Assembly: GCA_900321605.1 (NCBI GenBank)
Contig: ONWR01000014.1
Span: 1-45,752, forward strand
Source: an uncultured Bacteroidales bacterium
GTDB taxonomy: Bacteria; Bacteroidota; Bacteroidia; Bacteroidales; Paludibacteraceae
Direction: 5' to 3'
DNA: 45,752 nucleotides
Positions 7,120 to 43,700 of this stretch are shown piece by piece. Every line of letters begins with the position of its first letter. The first letter of the stretch is position 1. The position numbers and the translations under genes are program-made. The notes under the pieces are model-generated. The model worked only from the letters and a program-made list of their open reading frames with translations. It did not search any database and had not been told where the DNA came from.

Positions 7120-8352
7120 ATGAAAAAGAAATATTTGTGGCTTATAGCTGTCGTAGCGCTTTTCTTCGCTTCGTGCGAAAAGAAAGAGCCGTTTGACACA
7201 CAGTCAGCGGATGATGCCCCGCTCATCCTCAAACCGTACAACGAGTCCGGCACCGGTTCGTTCACCTATAAACTGGCGAACCCTGATACGCCGCTCTTTG
7301 ACTCGGTCACTGTTACCCCGTCCAACTATACGACGGTAAAATGGTATCTCGACGGTGCATTGGTCTTCACCGGATTGCAGATTAACATGACCTTCCCTGC
7401 GGGTGATTATGAGCTCCTTATCAAGGCGGTGACAACGGCAGGCAAACGTACCGAACGAAAAGGTACGGTTACCGTCAGCCCTTATGACACAGATCCTACT
7501 TCGGCTGCTCCGGCTGCCGGAAGACATGCAGTACCGGGCAACCCGACGACTCTGGATGGTTCCAACCTCAGCAAGGTGGACAAGGTGATTATCGCCAAGG
7601 ATATCTTTGCCAAAGAGGTAGTACACACTCTCTCTCCTGAGGCAGGCGCTACCGATTCCCAGTTGGCAATTACCATGCCGGAGACTCCGGACGGACGATA
7701 TTATGTTCGCTTCCAAGATGCTGAAGGCAAGATCTATGGTGCCGGAGATATCAATGTACACAATGTCTCTGTAGCTTTGGATGGTTATGCTTCCTTCGTA
7801 CCGGGTACCGAGTGGACTATCACCGGTGTGAAACTGGAGAACGTAGCTTCTGTCCAAGTGGACTCGATCGTGATCACCGAATTGACCAGAACCGCTACCT
7901 CCATCACCTTTACCGCTCCGACGGCTGAGGTAGGTGAGCATAAGCTCTCTATCAAAAATGCCGACGGCTCTAATGTATATTTCATTACTGCTGAAGGCTT
8001 GAAGGATGAAGTGACGACTAACGTCAGCGCGGAGACTACCATCTGGGAAGGCTCATGCGTCATCAACTGGGGTGACTCCAAAGTTGAACTGACTAAGGAT
8101 ATGATGAGCAATGTACCGGTAGGTGCAACGATCTATATCTATTTCAATATACCCGAAGCCGAGTACCATGCGCTTCGTATCACCGATGATTGGTGGGCTC
8201 ATGACCTCTTGCCGCAAGTCGATGGTATGGAAGGCCAACCGAATCCCTACACCTTCGTCTATGACGCAGCAGGACAAGCGGCTGTCGAGCAGACCGGCAA
8301 AGCACTCATTACCGGATTTGGTTTGGAAATCACTAAAGTTACCTTCAAATAA
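7120..8352 (+). CDS. SusE-position IPT/TIG-domain surface lipoprotein with CBM-like C-terminus
   Basis: A 410-residue lipoprotein; the start at 7120 places the signal MKKKYLWLIAVVALFFASC directly at the N-terminus, while an in-frame ATG at 7090 overlaps the susD stop. The body is a string of Ig-like domains, including a PKD-like N-terminal part and one or two IPT/TIG-like segments (PGTEWTITGVKLENVASVQV is typical). Residues about 306-410 (IWEGSCVINW to the end) repeat the module found twice in the protein at 1301-2203. In PULs the gene after susD usually encodes a surface glycan-binding protein (SGBP/SusE-like), and the architecture of Ig spacers with a terminal binding module fits. A heptamer-type repeat follows the stop codon. 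Confidence 0.75.
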   Translation: MKKKYLWLIAVVALFFASCEKKEPFDTQSADDAPLILKPYNESGTGSFTYKLANPDTPLFDSVTVTPSNYTTVKWYLDGALVFTGLQINMTFPAGDYELLIKAVTTAGKRTERKGTVTVSPYDTDPTSAAPAAGRHAVPGNPTTLDGSNLSKVDKVIIAKDIFAKEVVHTLSPEAGATDSQLAITMPETPDGRYYVRFQDAEGKIYGAGDINVHNVSVALDGYASFVPGTEWTITGVKLENVASVQVDSIVITELTRTATSITFTAPTAEVGEHKLSIKNADGSNVYFITAEGLKDEVTTNVSAETTIWEGSCVINWGDSKVELTKDMMSNVPVGATIYIYFNIPEAEYHALRITDDWWAHDLLPQVDGMEGQPNPYTFVYDAAGQAAVEQTGKALITGFGLEITKVTFK

Positions 8353-8383
8353 ATCGTACATCGTAAATTGTCAAATCATAAAT
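8352..8383 (+). repeat. Degenerate 7-mer array, ATCGTCA-like class, intergenic
   Basis: Fills the gap between the SusE-position gene and the MFS gene. Units of about seven bases (CGTACAT, CGTAAAT, TGTCAAA, TCATAAA) share an (A)TCGTA/CA core with the array at 27331-27396. Confidence 0.5.
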
Positions 8384-8387
8384 CCCT

Positions 8388-9731: not shown

Positions 9732-11575
9732 CCAATAACCCATTGCATATGTCACATTTCAGATTTACACAAAACGCTGCCTTTTTGGCATGCGCTTTTG
9801 TGTTGGTTGCCTGCAACCATTTCAACCCCGACAACGGTCCTATCCGCCTCAATCAGGTAGGCTTTGCGCCGGACCAGGAGAAAACAGCAACGGTAGTTAT
9901 CTCCAATCCTCAAATCATCAAATCATCAAATTGCTATATTTTAAATATAGCAGGTGATACCGTTTGGCGCGGAGAAGCATCCGGGACGATGCTTAACCCC
10001 GTTTCCGGCAAACCGTGCCAGATCGTTGATTTCTCCGATTTGACTGCTTGTGGCGAATATACGCTTTATGTGGAGAATGATCAAATGTCAAATCTTCAAT
10101 TTCAAATCTCCAATTCGCCTTACCGTGAGTTAACACGGCAGGCACTTCGTGCCTACTACCATCAGCGGGCTTCCATGGCAACCGAAGAGCCCTATGCAGA
10201 GGGATATGCGCGCCCTGCCGGACACCCGGATGATCATGTGATTGTTCATGCTTCGGCGGCGACCGACGAACGCCCTGCCGGAACAATAATCTCCTCACCG
10301 GGAGGCTGGTACGACGCAGGAGACTATAACAAATACATCGTCAATTCCGGTTTCACCATGGGCGTATGGCTCATGGCGTACGAGTTTAATAAAGCTTATT
10401 ACGATACCCTCTATCTCAACATCCCGGAATCTCAAATGAACAAATGTCCCGACATGTTGTCGGAGGCGATGTATAACCTCCGCTGGATGATGACGATGCA
10501 GGATCTGGACGGCGGCGTCTATCATAAGTTGACAGAGCCGGCTTTTGAGGGTTTTATCCGTCCCGATCAATGCAAAAAGCCCCGGTATGTAGTGATGAAA
10601 ACGACTGCGGCTACGCTGGATTTTGCGGCGACTATGGCGCTCGCTGCGCGAGTTTATGAGCCGTATGATCCGGATTTCTGCAAGGAGGCGAAAGAGGCGG
10701 CAATCAAAGCATACGCTTGGGCGGTAGAGCACCCCGAAGTCTATTACGATCAGCCGAAGATGAATGCGCAGTTTGCGAGCACATCGTGCCCCGATGGGGC
10801 TAAGAACGAAGAGATGAAACAATGCGGAGAGGTAGAGATCACCACCGGTGCGTATGACGATTTTGATGTGAACGATGAGTTTTATTGGGCGGAGGTAGAA
10901 CTGTATCTGCTCACCGGTGACGAACAATACAAAGCCAATGTAAAAGACCATGCTGGTGCTATTGCTAACACCCTTGCCAAAGACGGCAAGTATTATCTTC
11001 CGTCAACATGGGGCAATGTAGCTGAATTGGCGTACCTCGAGCTTCTTCTGCAAGGAAAGACCGACGCCGATGCTCTTTTAACTTACCTCGCGCCTTATCT
11101 CGACGAGGCAGACACCATCTCCGTGTTCCGTTCGCCCTACGGCAACCGCGAATCGGATTTCTTCTGGGGCTGCAACTCCGAGGGATGCTGCTGGCGTGGG
11201 GTAGAGTGCCTCTATGCCTACCGACTCACCGGAGACGAACAATACCGCATCAATGCCCAGCGGTGCCTCAATTATATCCTCGGGCAGAACGCGACAGGCT
11301 ATTGTTATGTCACCGGCTTTGGTTCCCGTCCTACCTCTCACCCCCACCACCGGCTCTCGTACACCAACCCACACGGCACCATCCCCGGTTTCCTTGCCGG
11401 AGGACCCAACCCTGCCCAGCAGGATCGGATTACCGATGGCGTAAAATACACCAAGAACGTGCCTGCCGATGAGTCCTACCTCGATTTTCAGCCCTCTTAT
11501 GCCTCCAATGAGGTCACTATTAACTGGAATGTAACACTCTTTGCTCTAACAGCCGGAATCGATGCGCTGGAATAA
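9728..11575 (+). CDS. GH9 cellulase with N-terminal Ig-like domain, lipoprotein
   Basis: Inverting endo- or exo-glucanase of family GH9, 615 residues. A lipobox (VLVAC) follows a hydrophobic stretch at about 15-28. The CelD_N Ig-like domain begins at IRLNQVGFAP (about 38-47). The catalytic (alpha/alpha)6 barrel shows GGWYDAGDYNKY at about 192-203, holding the two catalytic-base Asp residues, the SRPTSHPHHR segment near 535, and the acid Glu E595 in NEVTINWN. The start overlaps the MFS stop; an ATG at 9749 is an alternative. Two short repeat arrays (9903-9936 and 10080-10117) lie in frame in the Ig-like domain, encoding QIIKSSN and QMSNLQFQISN, an unusual feature shared with other genes here. 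The gene end overlaps GH3 by 14 bp. Confidence 0.93.
   Translation: MTNNPLHMSHFRFTQNAAFLACAFVLVACNHFNPDNGPIRLNQVGFAPDQEKTATVVISNPQIIKSSNCYILNIAGDTVWRGEASGTMLNPVSGKPCQIVDFSDLTACGEYTLYVENDQMSNLQFQISNSPYRELTRQALRAYYHQRASMATEEPYAEGYARPAGHPDDHVIVHASAATDERPAGTIISSPGGWYDAGDYNKYIVNSGFTMGVWLMAYEFNKAYYDTLYLNIPESQMNKCPDMLSEAMYNLRWMMTMQDLDGGVYHKLTEPAFEGFIRPDQCKKPRYVVMKTTAATLDFAATMALAARVYEPYDPDFCKEAKEAAIKAYAWAVEHPEVYYDQPKMNAQFASTSCPDGAKNEEMKQCGEVEITTGAYDDFDVNDEFYWAEVELYLLTGDEQYKANVKDHAGAIANTLAKDGKYYLPSTWGNVAELAYLELLLQGKTDADALLTYLAPYLDEADTISVFRSPYGNRESDFFWGCNSEGCCWRGVECLYAYRLTGDEQYRINAQRCLNYILGQNATGYCYVTGFGSRPTSHPHHRLSYTNPHGTIPGFLAGGPNPAQQDRITDGVKYTKNVPADESYLDFQPSYASNEVTINWNVTLFALTAGIDALE
9903..9936 (+). 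repeat. CAAATCAT tandem array inside GH9 gene
   Basis: Near-perfect units CAAATCAT, CAAATCAT, CAAATTG, period 8, in the Ig-like domain and in frame. Confidence 0.6.
10080..10117 (+). repeat. TCAAATCT-type array inside GH9 gene
   Basis: Units TCAAATG, TCAAATCT, TCAATT, TCAAATCT, CCAATTCG; period 6-8, in frame. Same word class as the array at 9903-9936. Confidence 0.5.
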
Positions 11576-13835: not shown

Positions 13836-13866
13836 GATAACTATCGGCATTCGGGCTAATTTTTAT

Positions 13867-13905
13867 GAGGCGGAGCACTTTAATGGTGCTTCGCCTCTTT
13901 TTTTT
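13867..13905 (+). terminator. Rho-independent terminator after GH3 / end of PUL
   Basis: Twelve-base-pair stem GAGGCGGAGCAC / GTGCTTCGCCTC (one G-U pair), 7-base loop, then eight T. It marks the 3' end of the PUL transcript. Confidence 0.92.
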
Positions 13906-14202: not shown

Positions 14203-14215
14203 CATTCTATTCACA

Positions 14216-16380: not shown

Positions 16381-16387
16381 GAGCCGA

Positions 16388-16415
16388 ATTCACAATTCAC
16401 AATTATCAATTATCA
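16388..16415 (+). repeat. Exact period-7 array ATTCACA/ATTATCA
   Basis: Four units with exact 7-base period: ATTCACA, ATTCACA, ATTATCA, ATTATCA. The array at 16493-16520 is of the reverse-complement class. Confidence 0.75.
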
Positions 16416-16492
16416 AAGGGCTTACGGAGTTTGGTACGGACTAAAAGAATACGTACGGACTTATCAGTTTGTACAAAACCCTATAGGACGCC

Positions 16493-16520
16493 TTGTGATT
16501 TGTTATTTGTGATTTGTGAA
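16493..16520 (+). repeat. Exact period-7 array TTGTGAT
   Basis: Units TTGTGAT, TTGTTAT, TTGTGAT, TTGTGAA. Being complementary to the array at 16388-16415, the two could pair across the 77-bp gap. Confidence 0.75.
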
Positions 16521-16531
16521 TTGAAAAAAGG

Positions 16532-16624: not shown

Positions 16625-17761
16625 ATGCAGAAATGTTTCTATATAATAATGGCATTGCTGTTGAGCGTGGCGGTGTGGGCGGAGAAACCCTATACCGTGG
16701 TGCTCGATGCCGGACACGGCGGTAAGGATCCCGGCGCTGTCGGGAAGTTCTCCAAAGAGAAAGATCTGAACCTCACATTAGTCCTTAAAATGGGTGAACT
16801 CATCGCGGAGCGTTACCCCGATGTCAAAGTGGTATATACCCGTTCGACCGATGTGTTCATTCCCCTGCAGACCCGTGCGGACATAGCCAACAAAGCGGAT
16901 GCCGACCTGTTCATCTCGATCCATACTAACTCTGCTGAATCGAAAGCTCCGAGCGGTGTGGAGACCTTCATCCTTGGTACCGACCGCATGGAGGCGAACC
17001 TCGATGTGGCGATGCGAGAGAACGCTGTGATGAAGTTGGAGTCCGACTACAAAACGACCTATCAGGGTTTTGACCCTAACTCGATAGACTCGTATATCAT
17101 GTTCGAGTTGATGCAGAACAGCTACATGGATCAGTCCCTGCGTTTTGCGGAACAGGTGCAGCAGCGGTTTGTGGGTCACCTGAACCGTTCCGACCGAGGC
17201 GTCAGACAAGCGGCATTCTGGGTGTTGCTCAAGACGGCGTGTCCTTCGATCCTTTTTGAAATGGGATTTATCTCGAATCCCGAGGAAGAGCGGTACCTGA
17301 ATCAGCCTGCTTCGATGGCGCAGATGGCAAATGCGTTGGTGAACGCTTTCGGCGCTTATACCCACAAACAAGCGGTGAGAAAAGAAGCGAGTGAGAAGAA
17401 TTCAGAAGTCAGAATTCAGAGTTCAGATATTCAGAGTTCAGATGTCAGAATTCAGAGTTCAGATACTCCGACCAATGACCAAAAACCAACGACCAGCGAC
17501 TTTCGACCAACGACTAACGACCAACGACCAACTACCTTGTATGCTATTCAGATTTGTGCGTCCAAGAGTCCGCTGCAACCCAATGATCCGCAGCTCAAAG
17601 GGCAAGTTTGCGAATGTATGAAAGTGGGAGAATGGTATAAATACTATACCGCAGCCGATCCCGACCGTGCGAAAGTGGTGGAGGCACGCAAGAAATTGCT
17701 GTCCCTCTTCCCCGATTGCTGGATTATTAAAGTGGACAAGGGACAAAGGACTAACGACTAA
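16625..17761 (+). CDS. amiC: N-acetylmuramoyl-L-alanine amidase (Amidase_3) with SPOR-like tail
   Basis: Periplasmic zinc amidase that cuts the bond between MurNAc and the stem peptide during cell separation. Signal peptide 1-19; the Amidase_3 domain (22-245) has zinc ligands H31 (DAGHGG), E45 and H100 (ISIHTN), with the catalytic Glu E212 in FEMGFISN. Residues about 306-372 (LYAIQICASKS ... CWIIKVDKG) look like a SPOR/peptidoglycan-binding tail. The linker (about 259-304) is encoded entirely by two period-7 repeat arrays, giving IQSSD and NDQRPTT repeats, and the last few codons plus the stop lie in a third array (17737-17775). It has a strong promoter and is followed 29 bp later by the mlaD-like gene. 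The symbol is by family only. Confidence 0.9.
   Translation: MQKCFYIIMALLLSVAVWAEKPYTVVLDAGHGGKDPGAVGKFSKEKDLNLTLVLKMGELIAERYPDVKVVYTRSTDVFIPLQTRADIANKADADLFISIHTNSAESKAPSGVETFILGTDRMEANLDVAMRENAVMKLESDYKTTYQGFDPNSIDSYIMFELMQNSYMDQSLRFAEQVQQRFVGHLNRSDRGVRQAAFWVLLKTACPSILFEMGFISNPEEERYLNQPASMAQMANALVNAFGAYTHKQAVRKEASEKNSEVRIQSSDIQSSDVRIQSSDTPTNDQKPTTSDFRPTTNDQRPTTLYAIQICASKSPLQPNDPQLKGQVCECMKVGEWYKYYTAADPDRAKVVEARKKLLSLFPDCWIIKVDKGQRTND
17401..17463 (+). repeat. AGAGTTC/AGAATTC period-7 array in amidase linker
   Basis: About eight units of TTCAGAN type (AGAATTC, AGAGTTC, AGATATTC, AGAGTTC, AGATGTC and so on). The same class and orientation relative to transcription is found in mtaB (27965-28027). 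Confidence 0.75.
17466..17533 (+). repeat. ACGACCA period-7 array in amidase linker
   Basis: Degenerate units GACCAAT, GACCAAA, AACCAAC, GACCAGC, GACTTTC, GACCAAC and GACTAAC, then GACCAAC twice, encoding heptapeptides like NDQRPTT. Same class as 17737-17775, 22926-22967 and the centre of 26355-26436. Confidence 0.75.
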
Positions 17762-17775
17762 CGACCAACGACCAA
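17737..17775 (+). repeat. ACTAACG/ACCAACG array over the amidase stop codon
   Basis: Units GGACAAG, GGACAAA, GGACTAAC, GACTAAC, GACCAAC, GACCAAT. The amidase stop TAA (17759-17761) lies inside the array. Confidence 0.7.
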
Positions 17776-20452: not shown

Positions 20453-23400
20453 TTGATAGACGTTCGACACCCGTTAAATGTCTGCCGTGCTTCCGCAGGA
20501 ACCGGTAAGACATATACCTTGGCAGCCTACTATGTGGGGTTGCTGCTTTCCGGTGAGGACTACCGTTCTATCCTTGCCGTTACTTTTACCAACAAAGCTA
20601 CAGCCGAGATGAGCGAACGTATCATCGCGTATCTGTATGGTATCTCGCAGGGCACAGAGCCTGCTTTTTTATTACGCGCGCGTGATTTCATGCTGCGTGA
20701 CGCCGATGCGCCGGATGAGCTCTTGGCGAAACGGGCAGGGGACTGTTTTCGGAAGATGCTCTTGGATTACGACAATATGCATATCCGCACCATCGACTCG
20801 TTCCTGCAGACCCTCTTGGGCGGTTTGACGAGCGTGTTGCAGATGAGTGCAGGGCTGTCCATCGAGCTGGATCTGGATCATGTGATCCGGCAATCCGTGG
20901 ATCAGCTGCTGACGACCGATATGACACCTTCCGACCGAACGATCCTCGAGGACTATATGCGTCTCAAGCTCGATCAGGAGTCCCATTGGGATGTGCGGCA
21001 GAGTCTCTGTATGATGGCGAAAGAGCTGTACAACGAGTCGGTGCAGATGTTGGATGCCGAGGGACGGATCCTCTTTGATGCGGCGTCTATCGCTCGTCGC
21101 CGGCAAGCCGTGGAGCAGCAGTGGAGAGAGTGCCCTGAGTTAGCGGAACTGAAGTCGCTGCTTGCCCGTTGTAACCCCGAGCCCTATAACCGCTATACGA
21201 AAACGGCTTACGAACGTCTCTTGCAGAGCGTGGAGCACCCGGAGCAGTTGGCTGCCAAAGATCGTTTCAGAGGCGTGAGCGACAAGAGCTGCAACGCCGA
21301 CGAGATGGCGCAAGCTACCGAACTCGCAGCCCGCGTAGGACGGATATACAACACCCTTCAGCTTACTGTCCGTTTCAGTCGGGACATGGAGCTGATGGCA
21401 TCCCTGCAGAAACTGATACATCGTAACTTAGAGGAAGCCAACTGCGATCTGTTAGCGCGGACAGCGAACCTGCTGAGCAATGCTCTCAAAGCCGGAGATG
21501 CCGATTTCATCTTGGAGAAAGCCGGTATCCGTTACCGGCATATCCTCATGGATGAGTTTCAGGACACGAGTCGTTTACAATGGTCGGTGATCAACCGTCT
21601 GGTGCAGGATGTGTTAGCCGGTGAGGGACACACGATGCTCGTCGTGGGCGATATCAAACAGTCTATCTACCGCTGGAGAAACGGGGATTGGAAAATCATG
21701 TCCTCCCTCGGAATGGACGAGGCGCATTACGGTGCGCAGATCAACCGTGCCTTCCCGAACCTCACCCGTAACTACCGCAGCAGCGAGCAGGTGGTGAACT
21801 TCAACCTCTCGCTTTTTAAACATATCATGGCGCATTACCCTTACGAGGAGGAGCAGGAGCTGATCCATGCTATCTACGACGAAGGGTTTACGCCCGAGAC
21901 GCTGGACGAGTTCTATCAATCCGATAAGAAACGAGGCGGATATGTCCGTTTCCGTGCGTTCCCCAAAGGCACCAAGGAGGAGTTGGCGTTCGATATGTTC
22001 GACCAGATGGAGGCGCTCTTGGCGAAAGGTGCCGAACCGTCCGACATGATGATCCTCGTGCGTGAGAAGAAAGAGGCGGCGCTTATCACCGACCTCAAGA
22101 CACAACTCTCTGAGGAGCAGTACCCCCTTCTGACGGCGGCACCGATGGTCTCGTCGGATAGTTTTCTGTTGGAAGCTTCGGAAGATGTGCAGACTATCAT
22201 TGCGGGACTGAAGATCCTTGTTCGGAACGATGAGGTGGCTGCGCAGTGGATAGCTATGCGAACGGGCAAACCCGAACTCATCGAGCAGATCAAGAGCTGT
22301 GTCTCAGCCCGTACGCCTCTCTACGAGGCTGTCTGCGAACTGCTGCGACTGCTGCTGACCGATGCTGACGGACAGTACCACGGCACCGAGACGGCGTATG
22401 TCAATAACCTCCTCGACCGTACCCGTGAATATGTCAGCTCGTACGGCAGCCGTATGGAGGATTTTCTGGTCTATTGGGACGATACGATGCATTCGAAACC
22501 GATCCCTGCTTCGTCCACCGATGCGATCCGTATACTGACCGTGCATGCTTCCAAGGGCTTGCAGGCACAGACACTCTTCGTGCCTTTCTGCACGTGGACC
22601 AAAGAGGCAGGCAGACATCCGCAGAAGATATGGTGCGAAGTGGCTGAAGGCATAGGCGGCAATGACTATGTACCTGTGCCCGACGGCGCAGAGATGGCGG
22701 AGTCCGCTTACCGACCGGTCTATGACACCGAGCACCTGAACATGCGCATTGATAACATCAACATGCTCTACGTGGCGCTCACCCGTGCCGAGGATAATCT
22801 CTATGTCTCCACCTCGTACCCCGTCACCTCCAAAGGCGTCATGGGCACCTGCAACCATGTGGGACGGTATATCATGGACTTCGTAGGAGCAGACGAGTAC
22901 GAAGCAGGAGAACCTGTCATTAAAGGACCAAAGACCAACGACCAACGACCATCGACCAACGACCAACTCTGCGTAGCAGAGATCTGGGCGAACAGCGACC
23001 AAGTGCGGTTCGTGCAGTCGCAGGAAGGTGCGCTCTACACCGACTACGGCGAGGAAGCGTACCGGCGTGTGGCACGTATGGAGGAGGGAACGCTCTGCCA
23101 TGAGATCTTCGCGCATCTCAGCAAAGCCGATGAGTTGGAACAGGTGCTCGATGATTTTGCTACGCGAGGTGAGATAGCTTCTTCGGAGCAGCGGAACGAA
23201 CTGCGCACGCTCATCTCCTCCGCTTGGAAAGGCAATGACGAGATGCGGGATTGGTTTACGGCGCCTTGGCAACTCAAACTCGAGCAAGCCATCTATATCG
23301 ACCGGCGTGAACTCCGTCCCGACCGTGTGATGATCAATCCCGATACCCACGAAGCCATCGTGCTGGACTATAAGTTCGGTCAATGGGAAGACAAATATAT

Positions 23401-23509: not shown

Positions 23510-26363
23510 TTTCTTGCAACAAACAGCGCGCTCCATCATCGAGACGATCCCTTGGGAGCAACTGAGCCGCACGACCTTGGTGCTGCCCTCTCATCGTGCC
23601 GGTCTGGTGCTCAAGGACGAACTGCTGCGGCTGCAACAGGAGCGTCATGCGCAAGCCGTATGGGCACCGCAGGTACAGACCCTGCCGCAGTTGCAGGACG
23701 CACTCAGTCCCCTCTATGCCGAGGACGAACTGTTCACCATCGTGCGCCTCTATCAGATATACCGCACCATCGAGACCGATCCGGGCAAACAGATGTCGCT
23801 CGATCTCTTTTATAACTGGGGCAGGCAGATGGTGGCGGATTTCACGAATATAGACGCTTCGATGCCGGCATCCGAGGTGGAGAATTTCTTTGCGAACACG
23901 GTAGCCGCGCATGAGTTGAGCCGTTGGCAGTTGGATCCCGAGACGGAGGAACGGCTTCGTTCGCTCGTCAATCCGCAGGCTTCTACGGCTGCCCATGACT
24001 CCGTTAGGCATCAGTACGAACTGCTTTGGAGACAGTTGTACGACTTGTATAAGACCTTGCGCCAACAGATGGAGGCGGAGCAGAAAGGGTACCCCGGAAT
24101 GCGCCAACGTGCCGTCATTGAGCATTGGAGCGACGAGAACACGCAAGCCCTCGTGGCAGGAAGGACGTATATCTTCGTCGGCTTCAATTATCTGCTGCCG
24201 GTGGAGCGGGAACTGATGACGCTCTTACGCGATGCCGGACAGGCGCAGTTCTATTGGGACTTCGTGCCCGATTTCCAAACGAACGAGAAAGCCTTCTCCT
24301 TCGCTCAGATGAACAGCGCTATCTTAGGTAGTGCAAATCTGAAATCTGAAATCTCAAATCTGCATACGGCGAAGCAGATCGTTCGACCGGAGGGAGATAA
24401 GAAATCTCCAATAAATCTTGTTTCCTGTTCTTCCCGTGAGGCACAAGCGCAGTACGTCCATCGGTGGTTGCAGGAGAACTACACCGCCCATGGGCAGAAA
24501 GTGGGAGTTGTCATCTGTGACGAGACGATGTTGGAGCCGGTGATCTATACCCTGCCTGCTATCACTCTGGAAGGCGATACCGAGCCTGAGCCGGTGAATA
24601 TCACCAAAGGCTTCCCGCTGCGGAACACTGCCGTCTATGCCCGTGTCCTGTCTTGGCTCTCCGACCGTCAGAACGGCGATGCGGACGATCTCGTCACCAC
24701 CGATCTCATTGATCGCCTGATAGCCGAGACTCTCAACACTCAACCCTCACCTCTCACCTCTCACCTCTCACCTCTCACCTCTCACCTCTCACCTCTCACC
24801 TCTCACCTAACATGGCAGGAACTGCTGATCTTGGAGTCTGAGTACCAAGTGCGTAAGATCGTACATCAGATGCGTCTGTTGGTGGAGACCGGTTTGGGCG
24901 TGCCCTTCACTCTGAGGCTGCTGAGGCTGCTGATGAGAAGAACGATGGAGAGTGTCACAATGCCGTTTCATGGAGAACCCGTGACGGATATTCAGGTCAT
25001 GGGTGTGCTGGAGACACGACTGTTGGATTTTGATCGGTTGTTGCTCCTCAACGTGGAGGAAGGTGTCATTCCGCAGCGGCAAACCGACTGCTCGTTTATA
25101 CCGTTCTATCTGCGCAAAGCGTGGCATATGCAGACACCCGACGAACGGGCTACGGTCTATGCCTATAACTTCTTTAGGCTCCTGAGCCGTGCAGGGGAAA
25201 CGACGATCCTCTATTCCTCGGCAGACACCTCAGACGGCGGAAGGGGAATGTCCCGTTTTGTGATGCAGCTGCTCTATTCGTCGGAGTTCGAGATCACCCG
25301 TCAGACGCTGCAGGAATCCGCAGTCCTGACACCGATGGATACCTTCGACGCACCGCTGAAGACCGACTCGCTGCTCTCTATGCTGAAGGCCGAGAACGGG
25401 GTGCTTCTGCGTTCGGACGGAAGACGTTACAGGCTCTCACCCAGCGCACTCAATACCTATATATCCTGCCCGCGTAGTTTTCAGTTGCAGTACATCCTCG
25501 GACTCTGTCCGCAGGAGGAGGAAGAGGTGCTCTTTGCAGCCAACACACTCGGTTCGTTTGTGCATCATGCGATGGAGTTTATCTACCGCACCTATATGCA
25601 TTGTGACAACCGTCAGCCGGTGCGTGTCACACCCGAAGCGATTGAAGCCGTTCGGACGGACGAGACGAAGATGCAGGCAGCGCTCATGGCGGCGTACGAG
25701 GCAATGAACGAAGAGCGAGCCGTTCGGCAACCTTCTGCCGAGCCCTATATACCCGAGTTCCACACCGGTGAGAATGTGATCATCAAGGGCTATGTCTCTA
25801 ATATCTTGGAGCGTGACCGTGAGGACGCCAAGACAGGGCTGCAGATATACCTTCTGGAGCAGGAACGGACGTTCCCTGTGCGTATCGAGGGAGTTGGGGA
25901 ACTGCTTACCGGCGGTACCATTGACCGACTCGATATATACGGTCCTCCGGGCAATGAACGGCTGCGTGTGGTGGATTACAAATCCGGTTCGTATAACGAC
26001 ACTACGCATGCTAAGAAAATGACTTCCTCGTGGGAGGAGATGATGGCGAGCGAAGAGAAAGGCTACGTGCGTCAGACTTTGATCTACAGTCAGGCTGTCA
26101 TGACCCATGACCATACGGGGCTGCCGATCGAGCCGAACCTCTATTTCTGCCGACGCAAACTGACGGACATAGAGACTACTATTGACGTGGAAGGCGAGAC
26201 CGTTCGGGACTACCGTTTGATCGAGCAGCCTTTCATGGATGCTCTGCAGACGCAGATCCAAAAACTCTTGCAAGCTATCGATTTCCCGCAATGCGAACCC
26301 GAACAGTGCCCTTCGTTCTGTCCCTTCTTCGCCCTCTGCGGCCGCAAACCACAAGAATTCTGA
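23502..26363 (+). CDS. addB: AddB-like PD-(D/E)XK nuclease with Fe-S cysteines
   Basis: Partner of the AddA-like protein in end resection, 953 residues. The N-terminal part is an inactive-helicase-like fold (LPSHRAGLVLKDELL near 25-40). The C-terminal nuclease begins LSPSALNTYISCPRSFQ and has GGTIDRLD and VVDYKSG (D825, K827), then RQTLIYSQAV. Cysteines C656, C936, C940 and C946 match the iron-sulfur staple of AddB-type nucleases. Most striking, residues about 415-436 are three SPLTSHL heptapeptides encoded by nine perfect copies of CTCACCT; a smaller array lies at 24335-24362. A change of one unit would shift the frame. It overlaps addA by 8 bp. Confidence 0.88.
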   Translation: MDSFLQQTARSIIETIPWEQLSRTTLVLPSHRAGLVLKDELLRLQQERHAQAVWAPQVQTLPQLQDALSPLYAEDELFTIVRLYQIYRTIETDPGKQMSLDLFYNWGRQMVADFTNIDASMPASEVENFFANTVAAHELSRWQLDPETEERLRSLVNPQASTAAHDSVRHQYELLWRQLYDLYKTLRQQMEAEQKGYPGMRQRAVIEHWSDENTQALVAGRTYIFVGFNYLLPVERELMTLLRDAGQAQFYWDFVPDFQTNEKAFSFAQMNSAILGSANLKSEISNLHTAKQIVRPEGDKKSPINLVSCSSREAQAQYVHRWLQENYTAHGQKVGVVICDETMLEPVIYTLPAITLEGDTEPEPVNITKGFPLRNTAVYARVLSWLSDRQNGDADDLVTTDLIDRLIAETLNTQPSPLTSHLSPLTSHLSPLTSHLTWQELLILESEYQVRKIVHQMRLLVETGLGVPFTLRLLRLLMRRTMESVTMPFHGEPVTDIQVMGVLETRLLDFDRLLLLNVEEGVIPQRQTDCSFIPFYLRKAWHMQTPDERATVYAYNFFRLLSRAGETTILYSSADTSDGGRGMSRFVMQLLYSSEFEITRQTLQESAVLTPMDTFDAPLKTDSLLSMLKAENGVLLRSDGRRYRLSPSALNTYISCPRSFQLQYILGLCPQEEEEVLFAANTLGSFVHHAMEFIYRTYMHCDNRQPVRVTPEAIEAVRTDETKMQAALMAAYEAMNEERAVRQPSAEPYIPEFHTGENVIIKGYVSNILERDREDAKTGLQIYLLEQERTFPVRIEGVGELLTGGTIDRLDIYGPPGNERLRVVDYKSGSYNDTTHAKKMTSSWEEMMASEEKGYVRQTLIYSQAVMTHDHTGLPIEPNLYFCRRKLTDIETTIDVEGETVRDYRLIEQPFMDALQTQIQKLLQAIDFPQCEPEQCPSFCPFFALCGRKPQEF
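24335..24362 (+). repeat. AAATCTG exact period-7 array in addB
   Basis: AAATCTG, AAATCTG, AAATCTC, AAATCTG; in frame, encoding LKSEISN. Same words occur in mtaB (about 28005-28020). Confidence 0.75.
24746..24808 (+). repeat. (CTCACCT)x9 perfect heptamer array in addB
   Basis: Nine identical 7-base units, 63 bp or 21 codons, read as SPLTSHL three times. This is the longest and purest array in the window. Confidence 0.97.
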
Positions 26364-26436
26364 ATTTTTAATTTTGAATTACGATGGACTAACGACCATC
26401 GACTAACGACCAACGACTAATTTTTAATTTTTAATT
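26355..26436 (+). repeat. Compound period-7 array between addB and the P-loop gene
   Basis: Three classes in a row: AATTTTT/AATTTTG units, GACTAAC/GACCATC/GACCAAC units, then TTTTTAA units running up to the ATG at 26437. The first units overlap the addB stop codon. Confidence 0.7.
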
Positions 26437-27330: not shown

Positions 27331-27396
27331 TCAATCGTCAATTATTCTCAATCGTCAATCAATCGTACATCGTCCATCGTCAAATCGTCAATCTCT
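27331..27396 (+). repeat. ATCGTCA-class period-7/8 array between convergent genes
   Basis: Units such as TCAATCG, TCAATTATTC, TCAATCG, TCAATCAATCG, TACATCG, TCCATCG, TCAAATCG, TCAATC. It runs over the 3' end of mtaB, so the last mtaB codons (FERLTI) lie in it. Confidence 0.65.
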
Positions 27397-28711
27397 CGAA
27401 GGTATTGACCTTCGTCTTGTCGTACGGACAACTGACTTTGATATAGTTCTCCGTGAAGCCGAACATCAGTCCGTCTTTGTGTGTGCTTTCCCAAAGAACC
27501 GTCGCCTCGTAGCCCTCGTGCTCGCGGTAGAAAGCCTCGGTCTTACGGGCTGAGATAGCATGCAGCTCTTTGCTGCGACGCTCACGCTCTTTCTGCGGAA
27601 CAACCGTCAGATCCATCTCTAACATACGCGTGTTCGCGCGTTCCGAATAGGTGAAGACATGCAACTGACTCACCGGCAGTTGCTCTATGAAATCCACATA
27701 GTCGCGCCAGCATTCTTCCGTCTCTCCGCGTACGCCTACCATACAATCCACACCGATGAACGCATGCGGCATCACGCGTTTGATATGCGCTACGCGTTCC
27801 GCGAACAACTCCCGCGTGTAACGTCTGCCCATGATCTTCAGCACCTCGTTGCTGCCGCTCTGGAGAGGAATATGAAAATGCGGTGCGAAATGTTTGCTAT
27901 TCGCTACAAAATCAATGATTTCATCGCTCAGCAAATTCGGCTCACAACTACTAATCCGTATCCTGTAATCTGAATTCTGACTTCTGACTTCTGAATCCTG
28001 ACTTCTGAAATCTGAAATCTGTATTCTGTCTAACTCCTTCAGCAGATCGATGAACCGTTCGTTGGTGCTTCGTCCGAAATCGCCGATGTTTACTCCGCTG
28101 AGAATGAGTTCCTTAGCTCCTCCCTTTAGCGCCTCCTGCGCCTCTTTGACAACCGATGCAATGGACGGGTTGCGGCTCTTACCGCGTGCCAGCGGGATCG
28201 TGCAGTACGAGCAGAAATAGTTGCATCCGTCCTGCACCTTCAAAAAGCACCGCGTCCGGTCATCCTTACTGTACGCCCCATGAAAATCCTCCACCTCACG
28301 GATAGGGGAGATTTGAATCTTCAAATCTTCAAATTTTCGAATCTTCGAATCTTCAAATTTTCGAATCTTCAAATCTTCTAATCTCTTGACGAACTCCGGC
28401 AAATGGAACTTCTCGTCTTGTCCCAATACGAAATCCACGCCCTCTATCTGGGCAATCTCGCCCGGCTTTAGCTGCGCGTAGCAACCCGTCACGATCAGTA
28501 TCGCATTCGGGTTCTGCCTCCGAATACGATGAATCGCCTGCCGGTCTTTATGATCCGCAGTATCGGTTACAGAACACGTATTGATGATACATATATCCGC
28601 CTCCTCGCCCTGTTTGGCACGAGTATGTCCGCGCTCCAGCAATGCCTTGCCCAGCGCACTGCTCTCCGCAAAATTCAGTTTGCAGCCTAATGTGGTGAAA
28701 GCTATTTTCAT
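27380..28711 (-). CDS. mtaB: tRNA t6A37 methylthiotransferase MtaB
   Basis: Radical-SAM enzyme that adds the methylthio group to t6A at position 37 of tRNAs, making ms2t6A. The 443-residue protein has the N-terminal MTTase domain with cluster ligands C10, C46 and C77 (LGCKLN, NTCSVT, TGCYAQ), the radical SAM motif CNYFCSYC (C163, C167, C170), HIPLQSGS and a short C-terminal TRAM-like region. Two period-7 arrays lie in frame: about residues 111-133 (KIRKFED repeats) and about 238-258 (SEVRSQNSD-like). MtaB orthologues lack these. A promoter at 28720-28751 puts the transcript start within a few bases of the ATG, so the mRNA is probably almost leaderless. Confidence 0.93.
   Translation of the reverse strand: MKIAFTTLGCKLNFAESSALGKALLERGHTRAKQGEEADICIINTCSVTDTADHKDRQAIHRIRRQNPNAILIVTGCYAQLKPGEIAQIEGVDFVLGQDEKFHLPEFVKRLEDLKIRKFEDSKIRKFEDLKIQISPIREVEDFHGAYSKDDRTRCFLKVQDGCNYFCSYCTIPLARGKSRNPSIASVVKEAQEALKGGAKELILSGVNIGDFGRSTNERFIDLLKELDRIQISDFRSQDSEVRSQNSDYRIRISSCEPNLLSDEIIDFVANSKHFAPHFHIPLQSGSNEVLKIMGRRYTRELFAERVAHIKRVMPHAFIGVDCMVGVRGETEECWRDYVDFIEQLPVSQLHVFTYSERANTRMLEMDLTVVPQKERERRSKELHAISARKTEAFYREHEGYEATVLWESTHKDGLMFGFTENYIKVSCPYDKTKVNTFERLTI
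27965..28027 (-). repeat. TTCAGAA-class period-7 array in mtaB
   Basis: On the coding strand: ATTCAGA, AGTCAGG, ATTCAGA, AGTCAGA, AGTCAGA, ATTCAGA-like units. Same class and sense as in the amidase linker. Confidence 0.75.
28318..28386 (-). repeat. AATCTTC-class period-7/8 array in mtaB
   Basis: On the + strand: AATCTTC, AAATCTTC, AAATTTTCG, AATCTTCG, AATCTTC and so on; encodes the KIRKFED repeats. Confidence 0.75.
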
Positions 28712-36034: not shown

Positions 36035-37102
36035 ATGATTTATGATTTCTATAAAGGCAAACGCGTACTTGTAACTGGGCATACCGGGTTTAAGGGATCG
36101 TGGCTGAGTATCTGGCTGCACGAAATGGGTGCGGAGGTTATTGGTGTGGCATTAGAGCCTCAGACAGAAAAAGATAACTATGTGCTTTCCGGTATCGGTA
36201 AGAAAATCAAAGCTGATTTGCGTGCTGACATCCGAGATGCAGCAGCAATGCAGCGATTCTTGGATGAGTACCAGCCTGAGATAGTGTTTCACTTAGCAGC
36301 GCAGCCGTTGGTGCGGTTGAGTTATGATGAGCCGGTGGAGACATGGCTGACGAATGTGATGGGAACGATCAACGTGATGGAAGCGTTCCGGCATTGCGAG
36401 TCGGCTAAGGTGGCTGTGATGATCACGACGGATAAGTGCTACGAGAACCGTGAGACGAACCATGCGTACACAGAGGATGAGCCGATGGGTGGTTATGATC
36501 CGTACAGCAGCAGCAAGGGTGCATGCGAGATAGCTATCAGCAGTTGGCGCAGGTCGTTTATGAATCCGGCTGCGTATGCAAAGCATGGCAAGGCGATTGC
36601 AAGTGTGCGTGCCGGAAATGTGATCGGTGGAGGCGATTGGGCAAAGGATCGAATCATTCCGGATTGTATCCGTGCCATTGAAGCGAACGAGCCGATTAAG
36701 ATACGCAACCGTCATGCGGTGCGTCCCTGGCAGCACGTGCTGGAACCGTTGAGTGGGTACTTGTTGCTTGCTCAGAAGATGTGGGAGCATCCGACGGAAT
36801 ACTGCGAGGGATGGAACTTTGGTCCGAAGATGGATGCCGTGGTGCCGGTATGGGATGTGGCGACGATGTTGACGAAGGAGATGGGAAAAGGTGAGTTGCT
36901 CGACCAGACGGATCCGAATGCGCCGCATGAGGCGAACTTGCTGATGCTGGATATCACGAAGGCGCAGACGAGATTGGGATGGAAGCCAAGATTGTGTACG
37001 GCAGAGGCAATCGCTTTAACTGCGGATTGGTATAAGCGGTATCAGAGCGAAAACGTATACGAGTTATGCGTTGAGGAGATAAACTCATTTTGTGGATTTT
37101 AG
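36035..37102 (+). CDS. rfbG: CDP-glucose 4,6-dehydratase
   Basis: Second step: CDP-glucose to CDP-4-keto-6-deoxyglucose. The 355-residue extended SDR has VTGHTGFKGSWLSIWL (14-29), a signature of this enzyme, HLAAQPLVRLSYDEP, TTDKCYEN and YSSSKGACE (catalytic Tyr/Lys), plus RPWQHVLEPLSGYL near the C-terminus. Adjacent to rfbF and rfbH, as in Salmonella and Yersinia dideoxyhexose clusters. The stop codon is inside a short TTTTAGA repeat array. Confidence 0.95.
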   Translation: MIYDFYKGKRVLVTGHTGFKGSWLSIWLHEMGAEVIGVALEPQTEKDNYVLSGIGKKIKADLRADIRDAAAMQRFLDEYQPEIVFHLAAQPLVRLSYDEPVETWLTNVMGTINVMEAFRHCESAKVAVMITTDKCYENRETNHAYTEDEPMGGYDPYSSSKGACEIAISSWRRSFMNPAAYAKHGKAIASVRAGNVIGGGDWAKDRIIPDCIRAIEANEPIKIRNRHAVRPWQHVLEPLSGYLLLAQKMWEHPTEYCEGWNFGPKMDAVVPVWDVATMLTKEMGKGELLDQTDPNAPHEANLLMLDITKAQTRLGWKPRLCTAEAIALTADWYKRYQSENVYELCVEEINSFCGF

Positions 37103-37117
37103 AATTTAGATTTTAGA
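37097..37117 (+). repeat. TTTTAGA period-7 array over the rfbG stop
   Basis: TTTTAGA, ATTTAGA, TTTTAGA, exact 7-base period; the first unit contains the rfbG stop codon (TAG, 37100-37102). Confidence 0.6.
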
Positions 37118-37124
37118 TTGCGAT

Positions 37125-38995: not shown

Positions 38996-38997
38996 GT

Positions 38998-40700: not shown

Positions 40701-41613
40701 GCGTTTTGTGGTATATACGGTAATTACCGGTGGGTTTGATAATGTGAAGCAACCAGCGGTGATTGATGAACGGTTCGATTATGTGCTGTTCACAGATAAC
40801 GTATCAAAGGATAAAATAGGTGTATGGAACATACGTCCTATAGAATACAATAATGCGGATGCACGTATCAAATCTCGCTATCCGAAGGTGTATCCAACAA
40901 AAGTGCTTGCGGAATATGAGGCATCGCTCTATATCGATGGGAATATACAAATTCTATTGCAGAAAGTATATGATCGATGTGTGGAGTTGAGTGAGGAAGG
41001 TGTAGAGTGGGCTGGAATTAAACATCAAGGACGCAAAGGGTTATACCAAGAATTGAATGCGATAATCGGACTAGGATGGGTACATGATTATGATGTGTTA
41101 GATTGGTATCAATTCTTACGGAAGGAGAAGTTTGCAGACGATTTGGGAATGTTCGAAAATAACATCATATTCCGTAAGCATTGCAAGCATGTAGAAGAAG
41201 TGAGCGGATATTGGGGTGATGTGTGTGTGGACAGACAGTTGGTGAAGAGAGATCAATTTTCGCTGATGTGGGCAATATCGAAAGTTCCTAATCTCAAGAA
41301 GGCATACCTATTATCCGAGAATGAGAATGCCTGGAATAATAGCGGGTACTTTACGTGTGAAGCACATCAGCCGCATAAGCGAGTATTAGATAAATCGCTA
41401 TGGGAGAAGATGCGCGATAGGTATGTGCAGATGAAATATTCTAGTGGCGATTGGGAGATATATTATACGAAGTGGTTAGATACATTGATTAAATGGCCAT
41501 GTCCACATGTCGCAATGCATGTATGGACATTTGGAATGATGATACGGTATGATTTGGGCTTCCTGTTAAGGAGGGCATTAAATCGTATTAAAAAGAGAAA
41601 ATTAAAGAATTAA
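40693..41613 (+). CDS. DUF616-type glycosyltransferase
   Basis: A 306-residue protein resembling DUF616/TOD1-MUCI70-type glycosyltransferases: VVYTVITGGFDNVKQP, FDYVLFTDN, SRYPKVYPTKVLAEYEASLYIDGNI (usual DxD replaced by DGN) and CVDRQLVKRDQFSLMW. Starts at ATG 40693, overlapping the DUF4422 gene by 8 bp. Probably adds one sugar of the repeat unit. Confidence 0.7.
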   Translation: MIKRFVVYTVITGGFDNVKQPAVIDERFDYVLFTDNVSKDKIGVWNIRPIEYNNADARIKSRYPKVYPTKVLAEYEASLYIDGNIQILLQKVYDRCVELSEEGVEWAGIKHQGRKGLYQELNAIIGLGWVHDYDVLDWYQFLRKEKFADDLGMFENNIIFRKHCKHVEEVSGYWGDVCVDRQLVKRDQFSLMWAISKVPNLKKAYLLSENENAWNNSGYFTCEAHQPHKRVLDKSLWEKMRDRYVQMKYSSGDWEIYYTKWLDTLIKWPCPHVAMHVWTFGMMIRYDLGFLLRRALNRIKKRKLKN

Positions 41614-41618
41614 GAAAT

Positions 41619-43679
41619 ATGAAACTGATGATTATTGGAGGAGGAGCGATTGCGGATTGCAATCATATCCCCTCTGCAAAGAAGGAATTGGGCGTGGAGA
41701 ATATAGTGCTAGCAGAGCCCAATCAAGCACAAGCAGAGAAATTGAAGGCTAAGCATGGATTGACGTGTGTGGTGAGCGATTATCATGAGGCGTTGAAAGA
41801 TGTAGATGCCTGCGTCATTTGTACGCCACCGCATATTCACAATGCGATATTGAAGGATTGTATTGCAGTGGGGAAACATGTGCTGTGCGAGAAACCATTG
41901 TCGCCATCCAGCAATGAAACGAAGGAGATAATCAAGAATGCGCCGAAGGATTTGGTGTTTGGGATGTGCCATTCGTATCGATTCTTCCCGAATAGACAGG
42001 ATGTGCATCAGAAGATAGCAGAAGGATTCTTCGGGGAGAATGTAAATATCACGATACATGAGGGAATGCCATCGGCATGGCCGACTGTGTCTGGATATTG
42101 CTACCGTAAGGAGTTAGTACCGGGTGGTGTGCTGTATGATAATGGTATTCATTCGATGGATTTTGCATTGTGGAACTTAGGTACTCCGACCGAGGTAGAA
42201 TATTCGGATGACAATATGGGTGGCTTGGAGAGCAATGCACAAATGCACTTGGCATTTGCCAAAGGTAGTGCCTCGCTCTATTTCAGCCGTACGATTGAAC
42301 TATCCAACACCATTGTCGTAGAAGGCAATGGGCACAAAGCGGTTCTTGAAGTGTACGTGGGTGGGAAATATGTATTGGATGGCGAAGAGATCGAGTGCTC
42401 TCCGGCTAAAGAAAACCAATTGCAAAACTTCTTGAATGCTATTGAAAGCAAAAGTGCAATTATGTGTTCGATAGATGGGGGATTAGCGGTTATTGATTTG
42501 CTGGAACAATGCTATGCGCAACGTAAACAGAAAGAGATAAAGCCGAATCCTGTAGGAGGATTGAAGGGTAAAACAGTGTTTGTAACCGGCGGAACCGGTT
42601 TTATCGGAGGACAATTGGTAGAACAATTGGTGGTGCATGAAGGCGCTAAGGTGCGAGTGCTGATTCACCGCTGGGCAAAGGCTGCGTATGTGAGTCGATT
42701 TGATGTAGAGTTTGTAGAGGGAAATATCTACGATAAAGACTCCATGATAGCAGCCACTAAGGGATGCGACTATATTATGCACCTAGCTATTACAGGTGGT
42801 GGCACTTGCGCTGAAGCCAAAGCGAATAGTGAAAAAGCAGAAGAAGCATTGTTAACTGCGGCTAAGGAGAATAAGATTAAGCATATTGTCCAGATGAGTA
42901 GCGTGGTGGTACATGGGGAGACGGTTCCTGAAGACTTAACGGCTGATTCTCCACTTATCGCGTATGATGATGCCTATGCCGCAGGTAAGTTGGCAGCTGA
43001 GAAGCGATTCTGGGAGTTGATAGACAAATATAAGTTACACGGCAGTATTATCCGTCCAACCTATGTCTGGGGACCATACTCGATGTGGTACACAATCTTT
43101 ATTTTGCAGTTGATGCAGAAGGGTGAGTTCGCGTGGGTGGATGAAGGACGAGGCATTTGCAACGCGGTATATGTGGGGAATGTGGTAGATATGTGCATCA
43201 AATGTTGCACGACACCAGATGCAGATCATCAAGCGTTTATTGCGAAGGACAATGAGACGCTAACATGGCGCGAGTTCTATGGACAATATGCTACAATGAT
43301 CGGCAAGAAACCGGAAGAGTTCTTATCTGTACCTCTGCAACCATCTATGTTTAGAAGAATGCGATTGGCGATGCGTGACAGATTAGAGAAACGGATGGCA
43401 AAATTGATGGCAAAATATGAGGCTAGAGCAGAGACATCACCAAAGATAGCTTTATGGCTATACAAAGCACCACGCAAACTACTTCGACACACACGCGATA
43501 TAATAATGTATCATATCGCGGAGAAGGGTGCAGTTGAGATGGCTATCTATAGTCAGATGAAGGCGATTGATGTAACGAAGAACAAAGAGGTGTTGCATTT
43601 AGAGCCAAGATATAGCGTAGCAGAAGGCATGAAGTTAACAAAAGAGTGGCTTGATCAAACCGATCTTTATAATGTATGA
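41619..43679 (+). CDS. Fused Gfo/Idh/MocA oxidoreductase and NAD-epimerase
   Basis: A 686-residue two-domain protein. Residues 1-305 form a Gfo/Idh/MocA oxidoreductase: IIGGGAIAD (5-13), ICTPPHIH, CEKPLS (EKP motif) and GGVLYDNGIHSMDF with the catalytic His/Asp pair. From about 310 a second Rossmann unit begins with KTVFVTGGTGFIGGQLVEQL, with YAAGKLAAEK as the Tyr/Lys motif and IIRPTYVWGP. The two halves normally occur as separate enzymes that oxidise or reduce C3/C4 of nucleotide sugars, so the fusion may channel an intermediate of an unusual sugar. The final 100 residues are helical. No stop or frame break separates the halves. Confidence 0.85.
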   Translation: MKLMIIGGGAIADCNHIPSAKKELGVENIVLAEPNQAQAEKLKAKHGLTCVVSDYHEALKDVDACVICTPPHIHNAILKDCIAVGKHVLCEKPLSPSSNETKEIIKNAPKDLVFGMCHSYRFFPNRQDVHQKIAEGFFGENVNITIHEGMPSAWPTVSGYCYRKELVPGGVLYDNGIHSMDFALWNLGTPTEVEYSDDNMGGLESNAQMHLAFAKGSASLYFSRTIELSNTIVVEGNGHKAVLEVYVGGKYVLDGEEIECSPAKENQLQNFLNAIESKSAIMCSIDGGLAVIDLLEQCYAQRKQKEIKPNPVGGLKGKTVFVTGGTGFIGGQLVEQLVVHEGAKVRVLIHRWAKAAYVSRFDVEFVEGNIYDKDSMIAATKGCDYIMHLAITGGGTCAEAKANSEKAEEALLTAAKENKIKHIVQMSSVVVHGETVPEDLTADSPLIAYDDAYAAGKLAAEKRFWELIDKYKLHGSIIRPTYVWGPYSMWYTIFILQLMQKGEFAWVDEGRGICNAVYVGNVVDMCIKCCTTPDADHQAFIAKDNETLTWREFYGQYATMIGKKPEEFLSVPLQPSMFRRMRLAMRDRLEKRMAKLMAKYEARAETSPKIALWLYKAPRKLLRHTRDIIMYHIAEKGAVEMAIYSQMKAIDVTKNKEVLHLEPRYSVAEGMKLTKEWLDQTDLYNV

Positions 43680-43700
43680 TGTTTGATGTGTAATGTATGA
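43673..43700 (+). repeat. TGTATGA period-7 array spanning a gene junction
   Basis: TGTATGA, TGTTTGA, TGTGTAA, TGTATGA, exact 7-base period. It contains the stop codon of the fusion gene and the start codon of the GT2 gene (43697). Confidence 0.7.

Follow-up and report, generated by a model that had tools for sequence, protein, structure and literature searches.

Why do short tandem arrays with a period of seven bases, built from many different units, lie scattered through the genes and gaps of one bacterial genome, and how does the same unit come to stand at unlinked loci? The question is raised by a stretch of 45,752 nucleotides (the window; contig ONWR01000014.1) from an uncultured Bacteroidales bacterium of the Paludibacteraceae. 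The window is contig C21 of a genome of 2.32 Mb in 64 contigs (G000). The best account that we can offer, with a probability of about 0.55, is that arrays are copied from a pool formed by the other arrays of the same genome and are held to dispensable slots by selection.

An initial annotation had listed about 19 short arrays with a period of seven or eight bases in the window, and Tandem Repeats Finder (TRF) gave about 20 rows of period 7 or 8 between positions 8350 and 43701, with the unit classes that had been named. A stricter scan of our own, which scores matches at lag p with +1/-2 and accepts an array at a score of at least 12, found 12 arrays of period 7 and 2 of period 8; the mean of 20 dinucleotide shuffles was 0.00 for both. 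The claimed recurrence of a class at unlinked loci was found for ACGACCA (17469-17536, 17734-17775, 22926-22967 and 26387-26420) and for TTCAGAN (17397-17463 and 27969-28029). The arrays within genes are in frame, as had been stated: the reading frames of the amidase, AddA, AddB and MtaB genes stay open. Autocorrelation at lag 7, which had been proposed as a check on the whole genome, was in the window above the shuffles but modest (z 3.7) and below the codon lags 3, 6 and 9, so that the evidence for the feature rests on the local arrays.

To extend the analysis beyond the window we used a sample of 445,752 bases, or 19% of the genome, consisting of the window and 20 stretches of 20 kb. This sample is non-random: five of its 21 pieces were picked near ACGACCA matches and the other fifteen came from three long contigs, taken from the first base, contigs known from the list of ACGACCA matches. 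Its arrays number 126 at period 7, 31 at 8, 15 at 9, 7 at 10 and 14 at 11; there are none at periods 4 to 6, and two local shuffles of it gave no period-7 array. The 126 period-7 arrays have 49 dominant units. With a simple caller of open reading frames (ORFs), which covered 90% of the DNA and certainly included false ORFs, 57 of the 126 arrays lie within ORFs, and array density per 100 kb is about nine times higher in gaps (133.5) than in ORFs (14.2).

The set for the genus, which appears to fall within the Paludibacteraceae, comprises 178 genomes, namely this genome, a sister species (G128) and 176 further ones. In stretches from 49 of them, 1.90 Mb with this genome and the sister included, the scan yielded 366, 74, 43, 11 and 57 arrays of periods 7, 8, 9, 10 and 11. 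Periods 2 to 6 together gave 7 arrays, which makes a sharp edge at seven. Period-7 arrays were present in the stretches of 34 of the 49 genomes and absent from those of 15. Three stretches without them contained period-11 arrays: L171 of G009 (five), L176 of G011 (three) and L181 of G033 (two). The common units vary from genome to genome across the genus, and ACGACCA dimers were detected in 10 of 61 genus genomes. In having tandem seven-base units that are dispersed and above chance, the arrays are like the bacterial heptanucleotide repeats. The observation of period-7 arrays is confirmed, and it is larger than initially reported.

Sites compared with a sister species

A search with AddA in the 178 genus genomes revealed one very close relative, G128, with 98% protein identity. 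Its DNA is about 94-95% identical in long matches, that is about 5% diverged. Among 151 array clusters of our sample four had no room for flanks; 75 of the 147 usable clusters could be placed in 260 kb of G128 sequence and 72 had no place there. The sister carries the same unit at 44 of the 75 sites, a unit one base off at 2 and no array at 12. At the remaining 17 it has a different array, either of another 7-base unit (8 sites) or of another period (9 sites). The reverse comparison of 62 sites gave the same picture, with 40 same units, 1 one base off, 6 other 7-base units, 6 other periods and 9 sites without an array. A first classification of the sites, which allowed long gaps and merged insertions with copy-number changes, was dropped, and only its sequences were used.

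Sites hand-picked from this comparison were aligned and checked by eye. Six of the 17 swaps are clean: window 24335, where AAATCTG stands here and CATTAAA in G128, and L129:824, L129:19089, L130:2535, L139:4492 and L140:16557. (Stretches L127, L129, L130, L133, L134, L139, L140, L142 and L145 belong to this genome, L188 and L199 to the sister.) The swap at window 22926, GACCAAC against AAAGGAC, is also clean by eye, though by rule it counts as one base off. In at least two gap swaps, L139:4492 and L140:16557, the exchanged part begins at about the stop codon of a gene and ends close to where the following gene starts; its edges may therefore be set by selection and not by a hot spot. Replacement of a class at the same site in the next species suggests that arrays are copied around the genome and do not arise only by local stuttering.

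Sequence between arrays also differs in place. In the gap after AddB, G128 has between its AAATCTG arrays a stretch that is located inside AddB in this genome. About 35 bases of spacer separate AGTTGAT-type arrays here; in G128 this spacer is found some kilobases away, flanked by ATTTGAG arrays, and each of the two sites is without it in the other species.

Within conserved genes the arrays return to few places. Among 15 arrays found in AddA of 28 genomes, 12 lie at residues 820-839, with about nine units, so that this slot is occupied in 12 of the 28 genomes. For MtaB, 16 of 17 arrays are at residues 110-134 or 228-249, and for AddB 17 of 19 fall in four stretches; the genomes in these counts are related and hence not independent. 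Orthologues of the three proteins that are free of arrays also differ in length at the slots, which are thus probably tolerant linkers. Where lengths differ, the difference is divisible by three at 15 of the 19 coding sites and at 15 of the 35 non-coding ones, as assigned by the simple ORF caller. This divisibility in genes and the preference for gaps are signs of selection.

The initial annotation had expected orthologues to be free of the arrays and had suggested aligning them. In alignments of AddA, AddB and MtaB with 28-29 genomes most orthologues have no array at the window's places, and where one is present its unit mostly differs from that of the window. For these three genes the outcome speaks against the refuting case named there, distant orthologues with the same peptides. 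What had been expected is largely true of the units; it is not true of the places, as the slot is filled by an array of another kind in several orthologues. Exceptions are G055, with the same ACGACCA class at the AddA slot, and G128, which shares several peptides. A second, distant AddB-like gene is present in this genome (G000:C24:27161-29716).

Shared units and the source of the arrays

The ACGACYA class is distributed unequally between the two species. Counted as overlapping matches, its dimers number 151 in this genome, 17 in G128 and 0-61 in 18 other genomes; the reversed pattern was found 0 times in this genome and G128 and up to 16 times elsewhere. When the window and the five class-picked pieces are left out, the class still makes up 15 of 78 arrays here against 2 of 59 in the sister (Fisher p 0.007). 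At orthologous sites it is represented by 10 arrays seen only here and 5 shared ones, and in the sister by 0 own and 2 shared.

The arrays are mosaics of units from a vocabulary that they share. In 27 ACGACCA arrays, 103 of the 116 units are one of four WCGACYA forms. Of 160 variant units in this genome, 124 are seen again in another of its arrays, compared with 0.35 in a random-variant control, and three other genomes behaved similarly (46/70 vs 0.28, 41/58 vs 0.19 and 11/32 vs 0.13). The fraction of array pairs with identical units was 0.037 within this genome, 0.068 within G015 and 0.092 within G006, with a composition null of 0.001; between genomes it was 0-0.013 in 18 of 21 comparisons. 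Moreover, the 24 arrays seen only here are as heterogeneous as the 37 shared ones (0.122 and 0.116 substitutions per site, p 0.74). The median flank mismatch between the two species is 0.05, so that arrays with 0.122 substitutions per site are too mixed to have grown from one unit after the split, if they are young.

These data bear directly on replication slippage alone, in which a chance duplication of seven bases is expanded by the polymerase at each locus. We regard it as an unlikely explanation, in agreement with the initial annotation, which had held that slippage alone does not account for the transfer of a class between loci. In its favour, some long arrays are nearly homogeneous (24732-24808), and among long repeats a unit of seven is reported to be the most frequent in the majority of genomes surveyed (PMC4679880). 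Adjacent units in this genome are identical in 129 of 336 cases against 118 after shuffling within arrays (z 1.8; 47 of 1000 shuffles reach 129). This excess, however, is weak in the sister (z 1.06) and absent in three further genomes (z 0.01, -0.13 and -1.26), and the order of variant units is nearly random in the five genomes as a whole (z 1.8, 1.1, 0.0, -0.1 and -1.3). At sites with the same unit, lengths differ in 18 cases, by a multiple of 7 in only 4 of them, a count in which flank indels are still included. Slippage also leaves the roughly ninefold excess of the ACGACYA class over the sister poorly explained, and since arrays seen only here are mixed and share their vocabulary with other loci, even slippage from a seed fits poorly when it acts alone.

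In the account that we prefer, arrays of 7-base and less often 8-11-base units would be non-autonomous, mostly neutral DNA. They would be copies of other arrays within the genome, placed where DNA is dispensable, between genes, at gene ends or in protein linkers. The copying step, which we infer to be ectopic, would probably be repair synthesis or a template switch to another array, and one event would take over several units at once, in some cases together with the sequence next to them. Slippage at the locus would afterwards add or remove units, and selection would remove arrays that break genes, so that the same few slots would be refilled repeatedly. One class is also found as the two arms of a dispersed palindromic element. 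As a tentative extension, the whole genus may possess a mobile heptamer vocabulary, with arrays assembled from a genome-wide pool, placed in fixed slots and overwritten there with a length quantum of seven bases, so that linkers and gaps would be rewritten repeatedly without a classical transposon.

Several results weigh against copying from the genome's own pool. Other genomes use the vocabulary too: among the 160 variant units, 106 are found in arrays of G128, 50 in those of G035 and 49 in those of G015. Mutation bias is not part of the random-variant control, and mutation may be faster in units than in flanks. The fraction of array pairs with identical units is low within G035 (0.012), G128 (0.024) and G046 (0.000, with 6 arrays), and between genomes it is high for this genome and G128 (0.025), for G015 and G030 (0.032) and for G046 and G006 (0.056, 72 pairs). 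The arrays seen only here may be old and lost in G128, there being no close outgroup, and such loss would weaken the argument from heterogeneity. Among the 17 sites classed as different, some are weak cases or compound ones (window 17504, L129:480 and L139:13901). Non-periodic flank sequence is rarely shared, with 24 matches in 31,184 flank pairs here and 1 in 6,816 in the sister; about half of the 24 are at places of the palindromic element, and random 60-mers gave 2 of about 31,600 pairs. For the ACGACYA class no pair of donor and recipient arrays came to light in which the flanks are resolved on both sides, and copying is therefore inferred from statistics.

Nesting of one array in another was rejected as the cause of the swaps and adds no support. 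Here 5 neighbouring pairs were counted, against 1.1 expected for a uniform distribution and 7.1 for confinement to gaps (assuming that arrays are limited to 15% of the DNA), and in the sister 2 pairs against 0.4 and 2.7; nesting is thus not above the level expected from gap confinement. Finally, triplets of ACGACCA are widespread among phyla (Acidobacteria, Chloroflexi, Cyanobacteria, Meiothermus, Bacteroidota and others) on at least 117 contigs, L009-L125, which were selected by exact ACGACCA triplets. The most frequent change in them, as in this genome, is C to T at position 6, which on those contigs makes up 89 of at least 398 changes. The presence of this unit in many phyla means that the choice of unit may be partly intrinsic.

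A dispersed palindromic element and the features of the window

One subset of arrays is associated with an imperfect palindrome of 85 bp, from ACAAAGGGCTT to AGGACGCTTTGT, at window positions 16413-16497, with inverted heptamer arrays on both sides. Further copies in this genome are at L142:11934-12103, L134:9244-9400, L134:19864-20000, L130:3758-3890, L133:9922-10058, L139:9770-9925 and near L145:13191. A sequence model of the core was built from nine copies, after a chance gene match in L189 had been dropped. It matched 12 of 30 genus genomes, three of them with a single partial match only, and the rows numbered 38 here, 37 in G148, 11 in G034 and 9 in G128, both-strand duplicates of one place included. 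At 27 of 28 distinct places (30 loci) a heptamer arm with a score of at least 10 was found on at least one side, and the arm unit differs between copies. The heptamers therefore form part of the element, and one subset of the arrays constitutes its arms.

Five sites of the element were compared with G128. At L139:9770-9925 core and arms are present here and both are absent from the sister, a clean presence/absence that gives no direction of change. Of the other four, one is shared, one has 62 other bases and one has another interior; the left side of the window's own site (16387-16523) could not be placed in G128. Dispersed copies, conserved inverted ends and the clean presence/absence at one site are properties of miniature inverted-repeat transposable elements (MITEs), and the palindrome is possibly a miniature mobile element. 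A folded RNA was rejected for the core, with 17 pairs, one compensatory change and a covariation term against a structure, and no Rfam match to the core was obtained in the window.

Two observations in the sister concern similar structures. At L199:10723-11221 of G128 and L130:3750-3890 of this genome the same slot has similar heptamer arms with an interior of 497 and 141 bases, respectively, and looks as if the cargo between the arms had been exchanged. From position 1518 of L188, G128 carries about 130 inserted bases, among them AATTAAA arrays and the palindrome TTCGCGCAAATATGCGCGAA; the insertion is absent from this place in our genome. A similar sequence is located in G128 at the place that matches L127:13623.

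The dispersal of the core, its regular association with heptamer arms and the site at L139 would all suit a dedicated mobile system, in which arrays would be inserted or rewritten by a small element or by an enzyme not yet recognised, with the palindromic element as one visible form. We consider such a system slightly less likely than slippage alone. The element covers a small share of the arrays, and a core common to all arrays was rejected: apart from the palindromic element, repeated 16-mers near arrays are few, and the most frequent of them look promoter-like by eye. Two enzyme families were compared between 16 array-rich and 15 array-free genomes of the 49; G003, which is also rich, and 17 genomes of lower density were not included. 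RVT_1 reverse transcriptases gave no match in G000 (95% complete) or G128 (91%); they occur in 2 of the 16 array-rich genomes and in 6 of the 15 array-poor ones, and repeat addition templated by a reverse transcriptase was dismissed. DinB-type polymerases (15/16 and 11/15) do not discriminate between the groups, and no dedicated enzyme for the arrays was found in the two families. As to the dissemination mechanism suggested in the initial annotation, one subset of arrays is indeed tied to a dispersed element, but in general no single transmissible array family was found.

A useful role, whether in regulation, which has been proposed for TAACTGA in Beggiatoaceae, or in linkers that a protein can adjust, is a very improbable reason for the arrays to be kept. 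Gap preference and recurrent occupation of the same linkers speak for it, but the units change completely between species at many sites, so that no sequence is kept there, 15 of the 49 genomes have no period-7 array in their stretch, and in four of these (G002, G041, G026 and G027) AddA, AddB and MtaB align over the slots without arrays.

The features of the window are compiled in the table. By its genes the genome looks like one of the Bacteroidales, with SusC/SusD-like pairs recognised by eye.

Table. Heptamer arrays and associated features of the window, with their counterparts in the sister species G128 where given.
Feature	Position	Strand	Score and remarks
Weak period-7 array TAAATCG, gene junction	8350..8384		TRF score 40; under the thresholds of our own scan
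Period-8 array AATCATCA	9901..9931		own scan score 17
Left heptamer arm AATTCAC / CAATTAT of the palindromic element	16387..16416	+	score 17
85-bp imperfect-palindrome core ACAAAGGGCTT...AGGACGCYTTGT, dispersed element	16413..16497	+	flank comparison, sequence model
Right heptamer arm TTGTGAT, inverted relative to the left arm	16493..16523	-	score 15
TTCAGAN arrays in N-acetylmuramoyl-L-alanine amidase-like gene	17397..17463	+	scores 15 and 12; frame open; same unit in sister; gene named by eye
CGACCAA array in the same amidase gene	17469..17536	+	TRF score 73; shorter remnant in sister
GGACAAA/ACGACYA array, end of amidase gene and gap	17734..17775	+	score 23; TTAATTA array in sister
GACCAAC array in AddA, slot at residues 820-839	22926..22967	+	score 26; AAAGGAC in sister; arrays in 10 more genomes, other units in 9 of the 10
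AAATCTG array in AddB, residues 278-287	24335..24361	+	score 17; CATTAAA in sister
CTCACCT array in AddB, residues 411-436, peptide LSPLTSH	24732..24808	+	score 61; same in sister
Compound gap with GAATTTT, then GACTAACGACCAAC, then TAATTTT arrays	26355..26436	+	TRF and own scan; in sister other arrays and the stretch located within AddB here
ATCGTCA-type array, 3' end of mtaB and adjoining gap	27348..27393		TRF score 41; own score 10
TTCAGAN array in mtaB, residues 228-248	27969..28029	-	score 27; frame open
Period-8 array AATCTTCA in mtaB, residues 110-132	28316..28384	-	score 34; frame open; other units in nine other genomes
TTTTAGA array, gene end and short gap	37098..37119		score 12
TGTATGA array, gene junction	43668..43696		own score 10; TRF score 40

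Known heptamer repeats and the meaning of the arrays

Short tandemly repeated repetitive (STRR) sequences of cyanobacteria are dispersed heptanucleotide arrays with a patchy taxonomic distribution. The likeness to them that the initial annotation had drawn is apt, with the same period, mixed units and dispersal, and the P6b region of the Nostoc trnL intron shows replacement of classes as well (PMC4476775). Of the initial interpretation as a whole, this likeness and the insufficiency of slippage were borne out, but its wording on dissemination and on orthologues was too broad.

In Nostoc P6b two heptamer classes, Class I TDNGATT and Class II NNTGAGT, replace each other at a fixed place, as the classes do here, and the authors infer repeated replacement of the whole repeat region (PMC4476775). 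This is the closest precedent for the class swap, although P6b is a single structured RNA locus with two classes and here many loci, genes and classes are involved. In the long bacterial heptanucleotide repeats, for which slippage has been proposed (Mrazek 2007 as cited in PMC4679880), seven is the commonest unit and the arrays are dispersed and patchy across taxa, as in our case. What differs from these and from the STRR sequences are the tens of dominant units, the many arrays in ORFs, the turnover of classes and the imbalance between sister species.

TAACTGA direct repeats are known from Beggiatoaceae, Cyanobacteria and a few Bacteroidetes, with two sets in Paludibacter propionicigenes (PMC4679880). 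They resemble the arrays described here in that there are many of them, other heptamers are mixed in, and close relatives have shorter gaps without obvious repeats (PMC4679880). They consist of one unit, however, and in the best-studied genome are mostly upstream of start codons, whereas here many units occupy gaps and linkers; TAACTGA is not among the 49 dominant units of our 445,752-base sample. The GGGNATC repeats of Xanthomonas and Nostoc are likewise dispersed heptamers with variation in length and sequence and with inverted pairs, and 83% of their places are common to two relatives (PMC4692102). Their single unit is G-rich and quadruplex-forming, in contrast to the many units here, and class replacement is not described in the part of that paper used.

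The BrickBuilt MITE of Porphyromonas gingivalis is also a Bacteroidales miniature element with a tandem array, but its unit has 23 bases and its array lies inside the element, whereas the heptamers here are two inverted arms (PMC4596501). Borg repeats of archaea share with our arrays the rewriting of protein regions and fast evolution; they are near perfect, unique to a locus and judged to derive from local sequence, whereas here units cross loci and arrays are mixed (PMC9879509). Among the matches listed, no title or beginning of an abstract announced such swaps in Bacteroidales, with subscription literature mostly outside the scope. Heptanucleotide repeats are already known from some bacteria (PMC4679880, PMC4692102). 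Apparently new are the scale, the way in which arrays mix units of a vocabulary that recurs, the unequal share of one class in two sister species, the slots in linkers and the palindromic element.

The dominance of seven-base units in some bacteria is an old question, and the usual answer is slippage of the polymerase. A sister species about 5% apart and 176 further genus genomes make this question testable, since an array can be present, swapped or absent at one site, and the mixture of units argues against slippage alone as a sufficient cause. The arrays also indicate that repeat DNA can rewrite the linkers of conserved enzymes such as AddAB and MtaB, and rewriting of linkers by repeats could mislead alignment and domain prediction.

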